From: Acidobacteriota bacterium
Lineage (GTDB): Bacteria > Acidobacteriota > Terriglobia > Bryobacterales > Bryobacteraceae
Assembly: GCA_026393985.1 (NCBI GenBank)
Contig: JAPKZB010000001.1
Location: 1-64,000, forward strand
Direction: 5' to 3'
Length of the DNA: 64,000 nt
In this document: one piece after another, positions 34,179 to 43,531 of the stretch
Layout: every line of letters begins with the position of its first letter
Position numbering within the stretch: position 1 is the stretch's first letter
The notes under the pieces: generated by a model
Told to the model about the DNA's origin: nothing
Databases searched by the model: none
What the model saw: the letters and a program-made list of their open reading frames with translations, nothing else
Translations under genes and position numbers: made by a program

Positions 34179-36655
34179 TCGGAAATTTTCAATCCTGCGT
34201 ATTTGGCAACGAGCTTCTTCAAGCCGTGGCCGGCAAAACTTACTGTCAGTTTAGCATCATCTCCGTCCCCTTCCTGCCGGAGTACGTTGCCGCGGCCATA
34301 TTTCGGGTGATTGACCACCGCTCCGACGTAGTTTCCCGGCTTCCGCGCCGCCTGCCGGGGCGGGGCCGGGGTGAAGGGCACCTTGCTTGGCGCAATCATC
34401 GGCCGGCCGCTGGTCACCGCCGGGGCCGGACGCGGGGCCGGCGGTGCGGTAGCCGTCTCGGCCTCCAACTCGGCAAACCAGGGCGGCCGGTTGTCGTCGG
34501 TCGGCGATGGGGAGGAGGCCGGCGTCGGGGGCGCCGGCGCCGCGGCCTTGGCCGCAATATTCGGCGGCACTTTCACCCCCCGCTCTTCAAAATACCGGGC
34601 GATGTTGTCCACCGAGTTATAGGTCTTGCCCGTGAACAGGTTCTTTTTGACCGACTCCCGCACCTCGCCCCGCTCGGCAAACAGCTCCACCTCGGTCTCA
34701 CCCGTCGCGCCGCCGCCGGCGCCCGCCCGCGCCACCAACGCCTTCGGCACCTCGGCCAGAAAACGCGAAGGCATGGTCGGCTCGGCCGGCCCCCCGCCAA
34801 ACTTCCTTCGGAAACGCGCCCAGGAAAGCGTCAGCCGCTGTTCGGCCCGCGTCATGCCCACGTAGCAGAGCCGCCGCTCCTCTTCCATGCCCGTGTCATC
34901 GTTCAAGCTGCGCGAGTGCGGAAACAGCCCGTCCTCCATCCCGGCCAGAAACACGACCGGAAACTCCAGACCCTTGGCGTTGTGGATCGTCAGCAGGGAA
35001 ATCCGCGCCGTCTCGTCGAGATTATCGGAATCGGCCACCAGCGCCGTGTGATCGAGAAAATCGGTAATCGAATCGCCCCGTTCGGTCGCCTCGGCCGCCG
35101 CGTTCAGCAGTTCGGCGATGTTTTCAAGCCGTCCCTCGGCCTCGGGCGCCGTATCGGTTTCGAGCATCCGCTTGTAGCCGGACTCTTCAAAAACCGTCCG
35201 CAAAACCAGCCCGATGTTGTTGGTCGCCACCGCCTGCTGGCAGACCTGGATCAGCTCCCGAAACGCCTTCAACGCACTCTCGGCCCGCGCCCCCAGGCTA
35301 TGCTTCTGCAGCATGTCCCCAATGGCTTCCCACATCGAAATCCGAAACTGCGCCGCATGCTGCTCAATCTGCTCAAGCGTCGTCTTGCCAATGCCCCGCG
35401 CCGGGATGTTGATGCAGCGCACAAGGCCGATGGAATCGTCCAGATTCATCAGCAGCCGCAGATACGCCAGCAGGTCCTTGATCTCGGCGCGCTGATAGAA
35501 ACTGAACCCCCCGACGACGATATACGGGCGCCCATACCGCCGCAGCGCCTCTTCAATCTGACGCGACTGCGAGTTCGTCCGGTAAAGCACTGCGACCCGC
35601 GAATCCGGCTGCCGGCTCAAATGCCGGTCAATCTCGCTCGCGATATAGAGCGCCTCGTTCTCCCCGTCGAGAGCCTCATACACGGTGATCCGGTCGCCCG
35701 CCCCGGCCGCCGTCCACAGCGTCTTGCCCTTCCGCTGCTGATTATGCGCTACCACCGCCCCCGCGGCGTCCAGGATGTTCTTCGTCGACCGGTAGTTCTG
35801 CTCGAGCCGTATGATCTGCGCCCCGGGGTAGTCCTGTTCAAAATCGAGAATGTTGCGGATATCGGCCCCGCGCCAGCTATAGATCGACTGATCCTCGTCG
35901 CCCACCACGCACACATTCCGCCGCACCTGCGACAGCAGCCGCATCAGGTCGTACTGCGAACGGTTGGTGTCCTGGTATTCATCAATCATCAGGTACTCAA
36001 TCCAGTCGTTGTACTTCCGCAGCGTCTCAGTGTCGTAGGTCAGCAGCCGCACCGATTCGAGCAGCAGATCATCGAAATCGAGCGCATTGGCCTGCCGCAG
36101 CTTGGCTTCGTACTGCTCATAAACAACCGCCAGCCGCGACATCTTCGGATCCTGCGTGCGCTTGTAAAAATCGGCCGGCGTCTCATGCTGCGACTTGGCC
36201 CGCGAAATCGCGCTCAACGCCGCCCGGTACTGCATGAACTTCTCATCCAGCCCCAGATTCTTGAAGATCCCTTTAATCAGTGCCGTCTGGTCGTCGTCGT
36301 CATAAATCAAATACTGCGTCGTAAAATTCGGCCGCAGCTCCGCCAGCCTGGCGCCGTCCTGCCGCAGCAGCCGCACGCAAAACCCATGAAAGGTCGACAC
36401 CCGCGGCAGGCGCCCGGGATACGATTCCTGCAGCACCTTCGCCACGCGGTCGCGCATTTCGCCCGCCGCCTTATTGGTGAACGTCACCGCCATCACCGCC
36501 TGCGGATGCGTGCCCAAATTCTTGATCAGGTGGCCCATCCGGTGCGTGATCACCCGGGTCTTGCCCGAGCCCGCGCCCGCGAGAATAAGGAGCGGCCCGG
36601 AGGTGGCGGCGACCGCCTGCTGCTGCTGAGGGTTGAGACCGGAAAGGAAATCCAT
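34175..36655 (-). CDS. pcrA: ATP-dependent DNA helicase UvrD/PcrA
   Basis: The 826-aa SF1A helicase unwinds DNA 3' to 5' in repair and replication-fork maintenance. Motifs seen are: Q motif LNPQQQQAV, Walker A AGAGSGKT (26-33), motif Ia TFTNKAAGEM, motif II DEYQDTN, motif III VVGDEDQSIYSWRGA, motif IV LEQNYRS and motif V/VI (TIHNAKGLEFPVVF, CYVGMTRAEQRLTLSWA). The C-terminal ~150 residues are Pro/Ala-rich, then form a Tudor-like end (VVNHPKYGRGNVL), as in PcrA. It is divergent from the 53-aa ORF, with a 19-bp palindrome in between. Confidence 0.95.
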   Translation of the reverse strand: MDFLSGLNPQQQQAVAATSGPLLILAGAGSGKTRVITHRMGHLIKNLGTHPQAVMAVTFTNKAAGEMRDRVAKVLQESYPGRLPRVSTFHGFCVRLLRQDGARLAELRPNFTTQYLIYDDDDQTALIKGIFKNLGLDEKFMQYRAALSAISRAKSQHETPADFYKRTQDPKMSRLAVVYEQYEAKLRQANALDFDDLLLESVRLLTYDTETLRKYNDWIEYLMIDEYQDTNRSQYDLMRLLSQVRRNVCVVGDEDQSIYSWRGADIRNILDFEQDYPGAQIIRLEQNYRSTKNILDAAGAVVAHNQQRKGKTLWTAAGAGDRITVYEALDGENEALYIASEIDRHLSRQPDSRVAVLYRTNSQSRQIEEALRRYGRPYIVVGGFSFYQRAEIKDLLAYLRLLMNLDDSIGLVRCINIPARGIGKTTLEQIEQHAAQFRISMWEAIGDMLQKHSLGARAESALKAFRELIQVCQQAVATNNIGLVLRTVFEESGYKRMLETDTAPEAEGRLENIAELLNAAAEATERGDSITDFLDHTALVADSDNLDETARISLLTIHNAKGLEFPVVFLAGMEDGLFPHSRSLNDDTGMEEERRLCYVGMTRAEQRLTLSWARFRRKFGGGPAEPTMPSRFLAEVPKALVARAGAGGGATGETEVELFAERGEVRESVKKNLFTGKTYNSVDNIARYFEERGVKVPPNIAAKAAAPAPPTPASSPSPTDDNRPPWFAELEAETATAPPAPRPAPAVTSGRPMIAPSKVPFTPAPPRQAARKPGNYVGAVVNHPKYGRGNVLRQEGDGDDAKLTVSFAGHGLKKLVAKYAGLKISE

Positions 36656-36723
36656 GCAAAGGAGAGAGACGCTTTGAGCGTAGCACGCGGGTCCGGGTGC
36701 GGAGGCCTAGTACTTTAGGGCGA

Positions 36724-36755
36724 TTGACTTATTACTACTAGTACTGTACTAGTAT
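36724..36755 (+). promoter_or_regulatory. Promoter overlapped by a 19-bp palindromic operator
   Basis: TTGACT (36724-36729) and TACTAG (36747-36752) are 17 bp apart. The perfect palindrome TACTAGTACTGTACTAGTA (36736-36754) covers the spacer and -10 region, so a bound dimeric repressor would block RNA polymerase. The TACTA...TAGTA half-sites recall BlaI/MecI-type operators; that link is an inference. The transcript would begin at or next to the ATG at 36760. Confidence 0.6.
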
Positions 36756-36759
36756 TCCT

Positions 36760-36921
36760 ATGGAAGAGCAAGCCTTCTTAACCCCGGAAGCCCTCCGGGC
36801 CGGCCACGAGGATCTTCTGGCCGACCTGCGCGAACAGCGGGCTGAGATGGACCTGGTGATCGCGGTGCTCGAACGTTTGGCATCCGTCCGGACGCGCCCC
36901 GTGCGCGATATCATCATCTAG
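36760..36921 (+). CDS. 53-aa hypothetical protein
   Basis: The short frame encodes MEEQAFLTPEALRAGHEDLL, a predicted acidic-to-amphipathic helix, and ends PVRDIII. Codon use matches the neighbours (C/G-ending), and the promoter/palindrome ends 5 bp before the ATG, consistent with a leaderless message. It precedes the sigma-factor operon by about 70 bp. No family recognised. Leaderless start and short length leave room for doubt. Confidence 0.5.
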   Translation: MEEQAFLTPEALRAGHEDLLADLREQRAEMDLVIAVLERLASVRTRPVRDIII

Positions 36922-36992
36922 CACCAAACCGATCCAGCAAATCGTGTAACCTACGGGGGTGCGTGGTCGCCTTTCCCTCTGGAGAGTTCGAG

Positions 36993-37646
36993 TTGGCCAG
37001 TCTCGGTGTCATTACAGGTCGCGCACACGAGTTGGGTATGGCTGAAGGCCAGCTTCCCACTCGCGCCAAGCCCTCGATGCTCGTTGATTTCTCGCTGATT
37101 GAGAAAGCGCGGGAGGGCGACGATGGCGCCTTCAACCAGGTGGTGCAGGCTTACCGCCGTCGGATCCTGGGCACGATCTCGCGTCTCATCAGCCGTCGCG
37201 AGGATGTCGAAGATGTGGGCCAGGAGGTCTTTCTCCGGCTCTATTACTCGCTCGATCAGTTACGGGAACCGGAGATGTTCGAACCCTGGCTCTACCGGTT
37301 GACCGTGAATGCCGCCTACGACTACCTGCGGCGGCAGAAGCGGCGTCCCGAGGCGCGCATGGCCGATCTAAGCGAGCAGCAGGTGGTCGTCGCCGACGCC
37401 AGCGCCGGAACCCTGGCGCAGACCGAAGCGAACCGGAAGGGAAAGGTGCGCGAGTTCGTTGAAGCGCTGCTTGGCGGCGTAAGCGAAGAAGACCGCATCC
37501 TTTTGACGCTCAAAGAGGTGGAAGGACTGTCGCTCAAGCAGTTGGAAGCGATCTACAAGGTCAACGAAAACGCCCTGAAGGTACGCCTGTTCCGCGCCCG
37601 CCAGCGTGTATTAAAAGCCTTTGAAAGAAGCGAGTTAAGCTATTAG
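36993..37646 (+). CDS. ECF-type RNA polymerase sigma factor
   Basis: The protein has sigma region 2 (DGAFNQVVQAYRRRILGTIS, EDVEDVGQEVFLRLYYSLDQ, PWLYRLTVNAAYDYLRRQKR) and region 4 (LTLKEVEGLSLKQLEAIY, NENALKVRLFRARQRVLKAF). It lacks regions 1 and 3, as ECF factors do. I prefer the TTG at 36993 because GGAGAG lies 6 nt upstream; GTG 36963, ATG 37038 and ATG 37077 are alternatives. The next gene follows after a 9-bp gap with AGGTGA overlapping the stop, suggesting translational coupling to a putative anti-sigma factor. Confidence 0.9.
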   Translation: MASLGVITGRAHELGMAEGQLPTRAKPSMLVDFSLIEKAREGDDGAFNQVVQAYRRRILGTISRLISRREDVEDVGQEVFLRLYYSLDQLREPEMFEPWLYRLTVNAAYDYLRRQKRRPEARMADLSEQQVVVADASAGTLAQTEANRKGKVREFVEALLGGVSEEDRILLTLKEVEGLSLKQLEAIYKVNENALKVRLFRARQRVLKAFERSELSY

Positions 37647-37655
37647 GTGACCGAT

Positions 37656-38006
37656 ATGCCGTCTATGCAGCCCCATCATGATCGCCAAGACCAGTTGAAC
37701 GAACTGTTTGCGGCCTATCGCCAGGAGATGACCGACTTGGACGGCGGCCCCGATTTCCTGCCCGGCCTGTGGGGCAAAATCGAGAGCCGAAGGGTCCAGA
37801 CCTCTGTCTGGTTGGCTTGGACGCGCGCCATTCTGTCCGGCGCCTGCGTGGCCGTCGTTCTGTTGGTCAGCGTCGGCCTCTGGGCGCCGCTCGAACGATC
37901 CACCTACTATGACGCCTCGTATGTCGAAGCGCTCGACGCCAGCGAGGACGTGGTCGTAATGGCCGCCCTCCATCCGGCCTCTCCCGTTGAGCCCCCTACC
38001 GAGTAA
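37656..38006 (+). CDS. Small single-pass membrane protein, putative anti-sigma factor
   Basis: The 116-aa protein has a cytoplasmic-looking N-terminal helix region (QLNELFAAYRQEMTDLDGGP), one transmembrane helix at about 60-80 (AILSGACVAVVLLVSVGLW) and a short acidic tail. The layout and its position directly after an ECF sigma gene fit a membrane anti-sigma factor, but no zinc-binding HxxxCxxC motif is present. AGGTGA across the sigma stop gives the best start at ATG 37656; GTG 37647 is possible. Confidence 0.65.
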   Translation: MPSMQPHHDRQDQLNELFAAYRQEMTDLDGGPDFLPGLWGKIESRRVQTSVWLAWTRAILSGACVAVVLLVSVGLWAPLERSTYYDASYVEALDASEDVVVMAALHPASPVEPPTE

Positions 38007-38009
38007 TCC

Positions 38010-38420
38010 ATGCCCAGAAGTGATCGTCGTATCGGTTTATACTTGACCCTCGTGTTTCTGAGCGGCGTTGCCGTCGGAGCGGGCGGTCTCCAGCTGGTCC
38101 GCGGATCGGCCGTCAGCGCCAGCGGCCCGGCCCGCAAGAGCCCTGAGGAGTACCGGCGGGAGTACCTCCGGGAGATGAATCAGCGCCTGCACCTCGACGA
38201 ACAACAGACCACCGGCCTCCGTGTCATCCTTGAAAAGACCCACGAAGAGTACAAGCGCTTCCGCGAGCAGACCAAGCCCGAAATGCAGCGGATTCAGCAG
38301 GAACAGGTTACGGCCGTCAACGCCTTGCTGCGGGACGATCAAAAGCTAGAATACGAGAAGATGCGCTCCGAACGAGAAGCCAGGCGTAAGGCCCGGGGCG
38401 AACGCGGCGACGGCTTCTGA
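38010..38420 (+). CDS. Periplasmic CpxP/Spy-like (metal-resistance type) protein
   Basis: The 136-aa protein has an N-terminal signal anchor (IGLYLTLVFLSGVAVGAGGL) and a charged helical domain (EYRREYLREMNQRLHLDEQQ, then LEKTHEEYKRFREQ, KPEMQRIQQEQ and LRDDQKLEYEKM). This pattern, including the paired helices and the LxxDQ spacing, resembles the Spy/CpxP/ZraP fold that senses envelope stress or metals. It begins 3 bp after the putative anti-sigma gene, completing a three-gene stress-response operon with the ECF factor. Confidence 0.72.
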   Translation: MPRSDRRIGLYLTLVFLSGVAVGAGGLQLVRGSAVSASGPARKSPEEYRREYLREMNQRLHLDEQQTTGLRVILEKTHEEYKRFREQTKPEMQRIQQEQVTAVNALLRDDQKLEYEKMRSEREARRKARGERGDGF

Positions 38421-38465
38421 TCAACCAGACTCTCAAGCCAGCACAAAAGAACTCGAACAAAGAGA

Positions 38466-38500
38466 GGGCCGATCCTGTGATCGGCCCTTCCGCTTCTTGA
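38466..38500. terminator. Bidirectional intrinsic terminator
   Basis: A perfect 9-bp stem (GGGCCGATC and its complement) with a CTGT loop sits between the convergent sigma operon and rpmE. T-rich sequence follows on both strands (TTCCGCTTCTT on plus, TCTCTTTGTTC on minus). Confidence 0.82.
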
Positions 38501-38513
38501 GATTCCGGTGCCG

Positions 38514-38762
38514 CTAGGCCGTAGCGGCGGGAGCAACCTCGCGGGCCCTTTTGAGGTCGGCCGACTTCTGCATCCGCTTGTTGAACCGCTCTACCCGCCC
38601 TTCGGTGTCAATCAACTTCTGGCGACCCGTAAAGAACGGATGGCAGGAGGCACAGATTTCCACACGAAGATCCGTCTTATTCGTGGACCGGGTCTGGAAC
38701 GTGCTGCCACACGCGCAGATCACTTTCAAAAGGTTGTAGGCGGGGTGAATTCCAGCTTTCAT
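38514..38762 (-). CDS. rpmE: Ribosomal protein bL31 (type A, zinc-binding)
   Basis: The 82-aa protein starts [20 protein letters not shown] and has [13 protein letters not shown], giving the Cys set of zinc-containing L31. The C-terminus is the usual basic [15 protein letters not shown]. The start at 38762 is fixed by the conserved MKxxIHP; the frame runs open to 38813. An extended -10 (TG-C-TATTCT, 38780-38772) would produce a near-leaderless message. A longer transcript from the promoter at 39068 would pass the upstream hairpin first. Confidence 0.95.
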
Positions 38763-38810
38763 GACCTTCTTAGAATAGCACATCCGCGCACGTCCGGCGC
38801 GCGGGTTACG

Positions 38811-38850
38811 CAAAAACCAAAAACCCCTGCCGGGACGAACCGGTCAGGGG
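38811..38850 (-). terminator. Intrinsic terminator of the candidate RNA
   Basis: On the minus strand an imperfect 10-11 bp stem (CCCCTGACCGG against CCGGCAGGGG, 38850-38824) is followed by GGTTTTTGGTTTTT-like T-tracts. It lies upstream of rpmE, so it must end the RNA described above or attenuate rpmE. Confidence 0.8.
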
Positions 38851-39033
38851 CTTTCAGCTTTCTAAGAGTGGGCTTCGTGCAGGGAGGGGTCGGGGTACCG
38901 CTTACGACTCCCTCGCCACTGATCGAGGCCTGAGCAAATCAGAGGAGCCGCTACTAGGAGCCAGCACCCTCCCTGCGCCCAGAATTACTGCCTTCTATAA
39001 CCATGAAACTGGACCACCTCCTTTTTCAGTGAT
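38811..39033 (-). ncRNA. Candidate structured RNA with an anti-anti-SD sequence (or rpmE leader)
   Basis: A transcript starting near 39033 would be about 220 nt. Near its 5' end it carries AAAGGAGGTGGTCCAG (39025-39010), able to pair over 16 nt with the 16S rRNA 3' tail (one G-U pair). A 10-nt arm (38976-38967) pairs perfectly with 38888-38879 and encloses a CCTCG/CGAGG hairpin. An intrinsic terminator closes it. A 16-codon frame (ATG at 39004, tandem stops at 38954-38951) sits 12 nt after GGAGG, so it may instead be a leader peptide mRNA. It ends 49 nt before rpmE on the same strand, so attenuation of rpmE is an alternative. No known RNA family was recognised. Confidence 0.65.
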
Positions 39034-39039
39034 GACCAC

Positions 39040-39068
39040 AGAATAGCCGCACCGCCCCTCCCTGTCAA
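39040..39068 (-). promoter_or_regulatory. Consensus sigma70 promoter of the candidate RNA
   Basis: On the minus strand TTGACA (39068-39063) and TATTCT (39045-39040) are separated by exactly 17 bp, one of the best promoter matches in the window. No protein gene of normal size follows before the terminator. Confidence 0.8.
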
Positions 39069-39294
39069 GAAGATTTTGCCACCGAACCCCCACCCTTGGT
39101 GGTCCCCTCCCGACAAAGCACTATCGGTACGCAGAACGTCTCACACAGGGCCTCCCCTGAATCGAGGCCCCGTGCAAACGTTGGGAGGCAATCGCCGCCA
39201 AAGCATGTAGTCCCTGAGATGCAACGCGGCTGTCACACGGAGACTTCTTTTTTCTGCGCCGAACCCGCTCCTCCGTTCCGGCCCCGTCCCTGTC

Positions 39295-39379
39295 AAGCCT
39301 TCGGACAAGCTAAGCCTTCGGACAAGCCAAGCCGTCGGACAAGTCAAGCCTTCGGACAAGCCAAGCCGTCGGACAAGGT
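39295..39379 (+). repeat. Five tandem 17-bp repeats upstream of the MFS gene
   Basis: Five units of AAGCCTTCGGACAAGCC (two with G for T at the sixth position, last bases varying) start at 39295, 39312, 39329, 39346 and 39363. The last unit runs into TACACT (39379-39384), a good -10 box placed 7 nt before the ATG, so the array occupies the promoter's upstream side. Copy-number change could alter expression (inference). Confidence 0.9.
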
Positions 39380-39391
39380 ACACTGTTCAAA

Positions 39392-40780
39392 ATGGCAAAG
39401 CGCAAAGCTCGCAAGGCGAAACGGGAAATCGCCTCGCCGCCCGCCCCGGCGGCGGTGCCCCTTGCCGCTCGCGTCGCCGAACCCATCGCCGAACCCATCG
39501 CCGAACCCTTCGGCGAGCCCCCCGCCGAGCCCCCCGCCGCCACCCCGGCCTGGGAGCCGCCGGTCGAACCCGTTGCCGCGCCCGTCGTCACGCCAGCCCC
39601 GCCCGGCCCCGCCCTGCACGCCGCCTCCGGTCGCCGCGCCCTCGGCGGTTTTTTCCTCTCCGGCCTGCTCTTCTCCCTCCTCGGAGCGTTTTTGCTCTCC
39701 TGGGGATACCACCTCCACTCGGATTACCTCACCGTCGGCTTCTACTTTCTGTTCCTCAACTTCGGCGTCTACGCCGCCTTCCACTTCACTCCCTGGCTCC
39801 TCAACCGCCACGGCATCCGCTTCGTCCTAGCTCTTGGCAGCGCCATCGCCGCCGCCGCCCTCGTCTATCTGGCCAGCGTCTCCGGCCCCGTCCCCCCGTC
39901 GCTCCGCATGGCCGGCCTGTTCGCCGTCGGTCTCAGCGCCGCCATGGTGAACACCGCCATCTTCCACGCCATCACCCCGCTGTACCAGCACGACCCGGCC
40001 TCCACCGTAAACCTCGCCGGTATCTTCTTCGGCCTCGGCTCCCTGGCCACCTCCGTCCTCGTCGCCGGGACCTTCAATACCTATTCCTCGGAAGCCATCC
40101 TCCTGATCATCGGCTGCATCCCGCTGTTCTACCTCCTGGCCTGGCTCCGCGCCGCCAAAGCCCCTCCCGCACCCCTCGCCAGTGAATTCCCCAGCCTCCG
40201 CGTCGCCATTCGCGATTTCCGCTCCCCCGGCGCCATTCTGTTCGGCCTCCTGCTCTTCTTCCAATTCGGCAACGAATGGGCCATCGCCGGCTGGCTGCCT
40301 CTGTTCGTCGTCCAACGCCTCGGCGCCAGTCCCGCTACCGGCCTCGGTCTGCTCGCCCTCTACTTCGCCGCCCTCCTCGTCGGCCGCGTCGCCGCCCAAG
40401 CGCTCCTCGACCGCATCAAACACTCCCGTCTGCTGCTGTTCAGCGCACTCGGTGCCTTCCTGGGCTGCCTGCTGCTGTCCCTCACGGCTACCGTCCAAGG
40501 CGCCTTCGTCGCCATCCTGCTCACCGGCGCCGGCTTTGCCGCCATCTACCCGCTCACCGCCGAAAGCATCGAGCATCGTTTCCGCCTCTATCACCCCGGT
40601 TTCTACAACGGCATCTTCTCGCTCGGCCTCACCGGGGCCCTCCTCGCCCCCGCCCTGCTCGGCCTTGCCGCTCACTTCTGGGGCATCGGCACCATCATGT
40701 GGTTGCCGCTATTCGGATCCCTCGCCGTCTCCGCCCTCGTGCTCGCCATCTGGCTCGAAGCCCGCCTCAGCCGCGGCTAA
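39392..40780 (+). CDS. Major facilitator superfamily transporter with Pro/Glu-rich N-terminal extension
   Basis: The 462-aa inner-membrane protein has about 12 helices after an unusual ~80-residue cytoplasmic lead, which is basic at first and then rich in Ala-Glu-Pro repeats (VAEPIAEPIAEPFGEPPAEP). Motifs such as NFGVYAAFHFTPWLLNRHG and the central loop fit sugar-type MFS proteins of the FucP-like group; the substrate is unknown. No Shine-Dalgarno precedes the ATG. A -10 box 7 nt upstream suggests a leaderless message. The 17-bp repeat array abuts the promoter. Confidence 0.82.
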   Translation: MAKRKARKAKREIASPPAPAAVPLAARVAEPIAEPIAEPFGEPPAEPPAATPAWEPPVEPVAAPVVTPAPPGPALHAASGRRALGGFFLSGLLFSLLGAFLLSWGYHLHSDYLTVGFYFLFLNFGVYAAFHFTPWLLNRHGIRFVLALGSAIAAAALVYLASVSGPVPPSLRMAGLFAVGLSAAMVNTAIFHAITPLYQHDPASTVNLAGIFFGLGSLATSVLVAGTFNTYSSEAILLIIGCIPLFYLLAWLRAAKAPPAPLASEFPSLRVAIRDFRSPGAILFGLLLFFQFGNEWAIAGWLPLFVVQRLGASPATGLGLLALYFAALLVGRVAAQALLDRIKHSRLLLFSALGAFLGCLLLSLTATVQGAFVAILLTGAGFAAIYPLTAESIEHRFRLYHPGFYNGIFSLGLTGALLAPALLGLAAHFWGIGTIMWLPLFGSLAVSALVLAIWLEARLSRG

Positions 40781-40921
40781 CCACGCACCAGAGCACCTAC
40801 CCGGCCGCCGCCCCGGGCCTCGTCACCTCGCCACCAGCGAGGCGCTTCGCCATGCAAAAAAGGCTTGCGTTTTGTCATTAGCGTGATACGCTGTAATTAC
40901 CTGATAGAGAAAGGCTCAGAT

Positions 40922-43531
<2,610 letters not shown>

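Follow-up and report, generated by a model that had tools for sequence, protein, structure and literature searches.

The minus strand of positions 39068-38812 in the window, the 64,000-nt stretch of DNA from an uncultured acidobacterium (Acidobacteriota bacterium) analysed here, carries an element with the layout of a small separate transcript, as confirmed by re-reading the sequence. Comparison with relatives points to a promoter and a terminator belonging to the element itself, a conserved RNA structure, a short open reading frame (ORF) with a selected frame, a fixed spacing between a second Shine–Dalgarno-like hexamer (SD2) and the stop codon, and a helix that involves SD2. We propose that the element specifies a stand-alone structured RNA of about 220 nt that would capture ribosomes and respond to them, with the act of translating the ORF, not the peptide, being what matters; this full reading has, in our judgement, an even chance of being right. 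Ribosome capture or sensing is the most likely function that the sequence data suggest. A ribosome-titrating or ribosome-sensing RNA was one of the roles considered in an initial annotation of this DNA, and on comparative grounds it is the one that survives best.

Anatomy of the element and its 16S tail complement

All features described below lie on the minus strand. The element starts with a predicted promoter of the sigma-70 type (39068-39040), in which the boxes TTGACA (39068-39063) and TATTCT (39045-39040) are separated by a 17-nt spacer. A promoter scan, checked against the letters, identifies it as the sole promoter-like site within 38500-39400, where shuffled sequences yield 0.2 on average, and TTGAC is present upstream in 72 of the 74 related elements with enough upstream sequence. 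The predicted transcript of about 220 nt begins at A39033 and runs to 38812, where the T tract ends. At its 5′ end, TCACTG (39032-39027) can form a pseudoknot by pairing with CAGTG, which is part of a hairpin loop further downstream. SD1, the 16S tail complement AAAGGAGGTGGTCCAG (39024-39009), begins at transcript nt 10, provided that A39033 is +1. It is followed by the small ORF of 16 codons, MVIEGSNSGRREGAGS, with a TAG stop (39004-38954), which was delineated from the sequence and by comparison. The SD2 position, GAGGGT (38971-38966), is located 9 nt before this stop, where most relatives have GAGGTG. Overlapping SD2, the 5′ strand of helix P1, GCAGGGAGGG (38976-38967), joins the 3′ strand CCCTCCCTGC (38888-38879) in a perfect long-range helix of 10 bp, which is present in the minimum free energy (MFE) fold and covaries in relatives. 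The element is closed by a predicted intrinsic terminator (38857-38812) composed of a hairpin at 38857-38823 and a T tract at 38822-38812. The promoter, the 16-nt complement, the 10-nt pairing, the terminator and the 16-codon ORF had all been pointed out in the initial annotation, and each of them is borne out here.

The window copy taken by itself has an MFE z-score of only -1.35, with an equally good fold in 21 of 200 shuffles, so the proof of structure rests on comparison. The terminator is found by a simple scan, but at chance level (shuffles yield 1.1 such sites), and the call therefore depends on a longer stem recognised by visual inspection and on the hairpins that relatives carry at the same place. 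Outside the element, a tandem array with 4.9 copies of the 17-nt unit CAAGCCTTCGGACAAGC occupies 39294-39377, just upstream of an ORF at 39392.

SD1 pairs with all 16 nt of CTGGATCACCTCCTTT, including one G–U pair. The end of the 16S rRNA, ...CTGGATCACCTCCTTTCT / CCTGCGGCTGGATCACCTCCTTTCT, is taken from three other genomes belonging to the same family or order and not from the genome itself, where a 16-mer search with up to two mismatches returns one perfect match, the element, and three sites with two mismatches; the genome's own 16S end thus seems to be missing from the assembly. With CTGGATCACCTCCTTTCT as the tail (a longer tail reaching h45 gave several spurious stronger sites), SD1 forms the strongest pairing, -28.8 kcal/mol, among the 21,322 overlapping 36-nt stretches taken from the two strands of the window, while the starts of 34 long ORFs reach -22.4 kcal/mol at best, with a median of -10.5 kcal/mol. 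Moreover, among 80 relatives whose loci were fetched with rpmE as query, 56 have an SD1 site no more than 600 nt upstream of rpmE, and downstream of each of these sites come an ATG and an ORF of 12-22 codons. This recurrence and the first rank among 21,322 stretches argue that SD1 is more than a chance complement. A further helix between GGTCC of SD1 and a downstream GGACC was considered for the whole order and dropped, with several relatives having GGAAC while GGTCC is kept.

A duplex as long as that of SD1 is physically plausible, because an SD duplex extended toward the start codon has been observed by cryo-EM in Staphylococcus aureus, according to the accessible part of that report (PMC13009471). 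The two systems share the pairing toward the start codon and the long spacing. The S. aureus cases, as described in the same part, are ordinary mRNA starts, whereas here a single structured RNA combines a complement to the full tail with a second SD at the stop (PMC13009471). The tight pairing of SD1 could also reflect nothing beyond efficient translation of a small mRNA.

The small ORF and the pairing of SD2

Among 74 relatives of the order, the GAGGTG hexamer, counted together with variants such as GAGGTT and GAGGGT, is found 9 nt before a stop codon in 72. Although the distance from the ATG to the hexamer takes 13 different values, it is divisible by 3 in 71 of the 74. The distance from SD1 to the hexamer spreads 42/20/12 over the three frames, i.e. 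its frame is not fixed. All three stop codons are used at hexamer+9 (TGA in 29, TAA in 27 and TAG in 16). In addition, the Glu codon is GAG in 73 of the 74 and never GAA, and the following codon is GTG in 62, GTT and GGT in 5 each, and GTA and GTC in 1 each. The GGT group, with the weaker SD2 GAGGGT, consists of the window and four close relatives. Two loci depart from this plan: the ORF of L012 ends elsewhere, and L129 has the RNA with an ORF that does not fit. Taken together, the counts for frame, stop spacing and codons indicate that frame and stop are selected, the peptide hardly so, and that the hexamer is held at the RNA level. On this comparative evidence the ORF is under selection for translation; the conservation of GAGGTG could be partly due to helix P1. 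The plan with ATG or GTG starts is common to 52 of 55 loci across the phylum, a count in which the plan itself served as the search rule, six loci are duplicates, and the three loci that do not fit are L159 (never an element), L185 and L186; L167, where the SD1 site is absent, was left off the list.

The conserved frame and stop, the strong SD and the C-terminal EVA (followed by two residues in most relatives, and present as EVA or a close variant across the phylum) would also suit a small-protein gene, whose product would be the peptide of 11-22 amino acids and whose RNA structure would only tune translation. However, the ORF ranges from 11 to 22 codons and the N-terminus of the peptide varies freely, EVA coincides with the constraint on GAG and GTG seen at the RNA level, and the window peptide itself has EGA in place of EVA. 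We consider a small-protein gene unlikely.

The structure was compared through a covariance model, R1, derived from 52 sequences, 50 of which come from the rpmE-fetched loci. R1 matches the window at 39033-38877 with 81.8 bits, a score that is not independent because the window copy belongs to the training set. The 80 distinct aligned matches include three that are truncated at the 5′ end and a spurious one on the reverse strand. In this set, 84.4% of the cells are paired compared with 75.6% after shuffling, changes on both sides occur in 22 of 26 pairs (14.3 shuffled), and the covariation is 0.334 (0.188 shuffled); none of 500 shuffles is as high on any of these measures. Sliding the structure along the alignment lowers the paired cells to 33-51%. 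The alignment leans toward the model, to which it was fitted. Two further tests used raw strands from 75 of 76 sequences, with L129 excluded for its ill-fitting ORF. The strands of P1 score 11.92 with their own partner and 10.09 with swapped partners (0/2000 permutations). The 5′ end paired with the region after the ORF scores 6.86 with its own partner, 6.57 when swapped (0/2000) and 5.12 with shuffled 5′ ends; since the 5′ end is nearly invariant, this pseudoknot gains little over swapped partners. The relatedness of the sequences inflates the numbers of all these structure tests. Judged by comparison across the order, the RNA structure is real.

In other families, a segment of the CAGnnCACC type follows the ORF, close to the terminator wherever one was placed, and pairs with GGUGnCUG of SD2. 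One pair of this helix varies, being A–T in L133, T–A in L132 and L134, G–C in L148, and C–G in L139 and L160. Altered but still pairing versions of the helix are present in L169 and L170, and a mismatch at the variable pair is found in L141 and L157. A swap test anchored on the motif in 52 sequences gives 6.65 for a segment's own partner and 5.58 for swapped ones (0/5000 permutations), with at least six rows kept in which the motif is visibly misplaced (L150, L177, L182, L183, L204 and L210) and with two loci, L180 and L181, having no motif. Anchoring on the terminator, which was placed in only 30 of 61 loci, yields a weaker result (7.27 versus 6.81, with 39/5000 permutations reaching the observed value). 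The order of the window uses a different 3′ partner for SD2, of the GGCCnCCUC type, and possesses an extra pseudoknot hairpin.

The 3′ partner of SD2 is the part on which another interpretation depends, in which the RNA would be a base-pairing sRNA gated by the translation of its own ORF. The ribosome would release the anti-SD-like 3′ segment (CAGnnCACC, or GGCCnCCUC in the order of the window), which would then pair with the SD regions of mRNAs. The segment is indeed conserved, resembles an anti-SD and lies near the terminator. Moreover, the MFE fold of a single locus, L148, pairs ten SD1 bases with GGACCGCCUC, a mimic of the 16S tail. Against this, the covariation of the segment with SD2 accounts for its conservation in cis, and we regard a translation-gated sRNA as improbable.

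Distribution and relation to rpmE

Within the order, both the structure and the promoter of the element are conserved, and relatives of the RNA occur in many other acidobacteria. R1 matches 62 of the 80 rpmE-fetched loci, three of these matches being cut at a contig end and three lying more than 600 nt from rpmE; among the 18 loci without a match, three (L009, L033 and L034) have an upstream region shorter than 170 nt. Searched against whole genomes, R1 matches 52 of 61 relatives, one of them (G047) by 30 nt only. Across the phylum, 76 of 396 genomes are matched, 14 of the 76 by matches of at most 40 nt; three short matches of about 30 nt proved on checking to be the 16S 3′ end in reverse orientation and were rejected as elements. 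The strict filters leave 320 of the 396 genomes without an R1 match, where either the RNA is absent or the searches miss divergent copies. Within the genus, the RNA is found in 14 of 19 genomes; four of the other five also lack rpmE, and in the fifth the rpmE start is located 166 nt from a contig end. The exact pattern SD1-ORF-GAGGTG-N9-stop occurs in 67 of 121 genomes of the family (1 in the reversed control) and in 44 of 396 genomes of the phylum (reversed control, 11 matches spread over 10 genomes); among the 44, the match in G390 resembles chance coding sequence. The window genome fails this pattern because its SD2 is GAGGGT. A search for viral carriers gave no match with a first pattern and six with a second; on visual inspection, these six fall within repeats or ordinary coding regions.

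Several single loci merit description. Genome G019 holds two copies, on contigs C93 and C208, one of the order type and one ending in GAGGTGGCTGAGGCTTAG as in other families, which suggests that the second copy is an older paralogue. In L202-L205 and L209-L213, from several families, blocks resembling GGGCGG...GAGGG-TTGGG-CCCTC...CGCC take the place of a clear TTGACA promoter upstream of SD1 and are perhaps a 5′ extension of the RNA. Two record titles look wrong: L084, titled Bordetella parapertussis, carries the element in the form typical of the window's order, and L049, titled Acidimicrobiia, comes from a genome that appears grouped with genomes of the window's phylum.

Downstream of the RNA lies an ORF at 38762-38514, with its ATG at 38762, which we take to be rpmE (bL31). 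It is preceded by an extended -10 of its own, TGCTATTCT (38780-38772), and 53 of 59 relatives have the corresponding TGnTAnnnT no further than 90 nt from rpmE, compared with 4.7% in shuffles. The extended -10 ends very close to the ATG (38780-38762), so the rpmE mRNA would be nearly leaderless in the clade of the window. rpmE is probably a transcription unit separate from the RNA. Elsewhere the RNA has other neighbours. By tblastn, no rpmE is found within the 1.5 kb fetched on each side of L132-L158, nor within about 1.5 kb in 9 of the 31 loci L100-L130, which belong to the same family or order. Flanking ORFs were read in 18 loci; inside the order, they presumably include hisG and a Rieske protein gene (L104), clpP and thiE (L130) and tsaD (L117, L126), and outside it thiG and ruvC (L133, L158) and NUDIX genes (L132, L148).

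These observations bear on the proposal, made in the initial annotation, that the element is an attenuator for rpmE. A cis-acting leader of this kind, with feedback by bL31 or the ribosome, would fit the position of the RNA within 600 nt upstream of rpmE in the 56 loci mentioned above, a linkage that is biased by the use of rpmE as query, and L31 leaders, likewise structured RNAs upstream of rpmE, are known in other phyla (PMC7247131, accessible part). The leaders described in that part of the source are single hairpins within the rpmE transcript of other taxa (PMC7247131), whereas the acidobacterial RNA looks separate. The conserved promoter of the RNA, the extended -10 of rpmE past the terminator and the different neighbours elsewhere make an rpmE leader very unlikely, and the terminator and the -10 likewise argue, at the sequence level, against the RNA lying in the rpmE transcript. 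The alternative that the element is plain intergenic sequence whose SD-like site and terminator arose by chance would be allowed by the MFE z-score and the terminator scan of the window copy, but is refuted by the conservation, the covariation and the frame.

Related RNAs and a possible mode of action

No family of Rfam 15, including L31 leaders as far as they are represented there, exceeds its cut-off anywhere in the window. At E values up to 10 the element is still unmatched, and the region 36000-42000 contains only four matches, all elsewhere. The statement of the initial annotation that no family matches thus holds for the window copy. It does not extend to the phylum, where relatives lead to the actinobacterial sRNA family Ms_IGR-5 (RF02471; gathering cut-off 45 bits). 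This model leaves the window copy unmatched and finds nothing in its genome at E up to 1. It scores 50.6 bits at L160 (the same element as L197), 44.8 at L136, 43.9 at L139 and 43.3 at L199, with lower scores or none in other relatives. At E up to 0.01 it matches 8 of 149 genomes of the phylum, one of them over the cut-off (50.6 bits). Among 14 unrelated control genomes, none matches at E up to 0.01; two do so at E up to 1, both below the cut-off. Sub-threshold scores alone consequently prove little. In the other direction, R1 matches the same place as RF02471 in G197, with 20.5 bits. Further Rfam matches on distant relatives (miRNA, CRISPR and others) are at chance level and were set aside; a true tRNA adjoins L205.

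The Ms_IGR-5 consensus begins with ACACAaGGAAGGAgGugGuCcGag, a block of the SD1 type, and the window copy too has an extended SD block at its 5′ end, AAGGAGGUGGUCC. The consensus further contains GAGGUG-gCugCccGC-uaG, with the hexamer 9 nt before an in-frame stop and, on our own reading, a UUG start. Its CAGuCACC can pair with GGUGgCUG, and a terminator-like hairpin follows, although the structure line printed by Rfam lacks this SD2 helix. The window copy keeps the position of the hexamer and the stop, with GAGGGT as hexamer, and its SD2 region pairs with CCCTCCCTGC instead of a CAGnCACC segment; that hexamer, stop and helix define the family is a reading of the consensus. Relative to Ms_IGR-5, the order of the window has another 3′ partner for SD2 and an added pseudoknot hairpin. 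From the sequences compared, the acidobacterial RNA resembles Ms_IGR-5 and is a divergent relative of it, not a member by the Rfam cut-off.

Ms_IGR-5 itself is reported to be expressed. According to the accessible parts of the respective papers, it was validated by RNA-seq in Streptomyces lividans (PMC8079986), forms an sRNA unit in S. avermitilis (PMC8780764) and overlaps ncMSMEG15794c in Mycobacterium smegmatis (PMC10454040), and one Ribo-seq study reports significant ribosome reads on its homologues in M. abscessus and M. smegmatis (PMC4974804). The accessible portions of the literature searched, mostly outside subscription journals, describe no function, ORF or twin SDs for Ms_IGR-5.

A second RNA with the same kind of 16S complement is the Caulobacter sRNA CC2171 (RF01867), whose consensus, compared in part only, has GAAAGGAGGUGAUCCAGUG in its 5′ part. 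The matches of this model to relatives are weak (24.7 and 22.9 bits, where the cut-off is 75), and the best score in the genome of the window is 17.1 bits, at another place and below that cut-off. The model also matches 6 of the 14 control genomes, 1 of them over the cut-off. L146 and L213 carry CC2171 matches, and CC2171 likewise starts with GAAAGGAGGUGAUCCAGUG. CC2171 may be an alphaproteobacterial counterpart of the RNA.

Short ORFs or internal SDs that act on the ribosome itself are familiar from leader peptides and recoding sites such as TnaC, prfB and dnaX. Unlike these, the acidobacterial RNA has no known controlled downstream gene or frameshift product. In the ribosome-capturing reading that we prefer, a 30S subunit would bind SD1 very tightly, and the translating ribosome would open the SD2 helix and then pause at the stop codon with its anti-SD on SD2. 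The RNA would act as a ribosome trap or as a switch whose fold reports ribosome loading; its output would be in trans or directed at the RNA itself, and rpmE would not be its target. More tentatively, and with somewhat less confidence than an even chance, we suggest a class of twin-SD ribosome-trapping RNAs that spans phyla and includes Ms_IGR-5. In such RNAs, SD1 would load the 30S subunit, SD2 would catch the same ribosome at the fixed stop, and anti-SD mimics in cis would close both sites, so that the RNA could serve as a gauge or a reservoir of free ribosomes.

If this is true, the orphan sRNA Ms_IGR-5 and the acidobacterial RNA, which lies outside the matches above the Rfam cut-off, would be parts of one widespread family. 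The family would have a concrete anatomy: SD1, a short ORF, SD2 nine nucleotides upstream of the stop codon, and an SD2 helix that covaries. The RNA would further be one dedicated to binding ribosomes, by way of the entire 16S tail, with homologues reported to be expressed in Mycobacterium smegmatis and Streptomyces.
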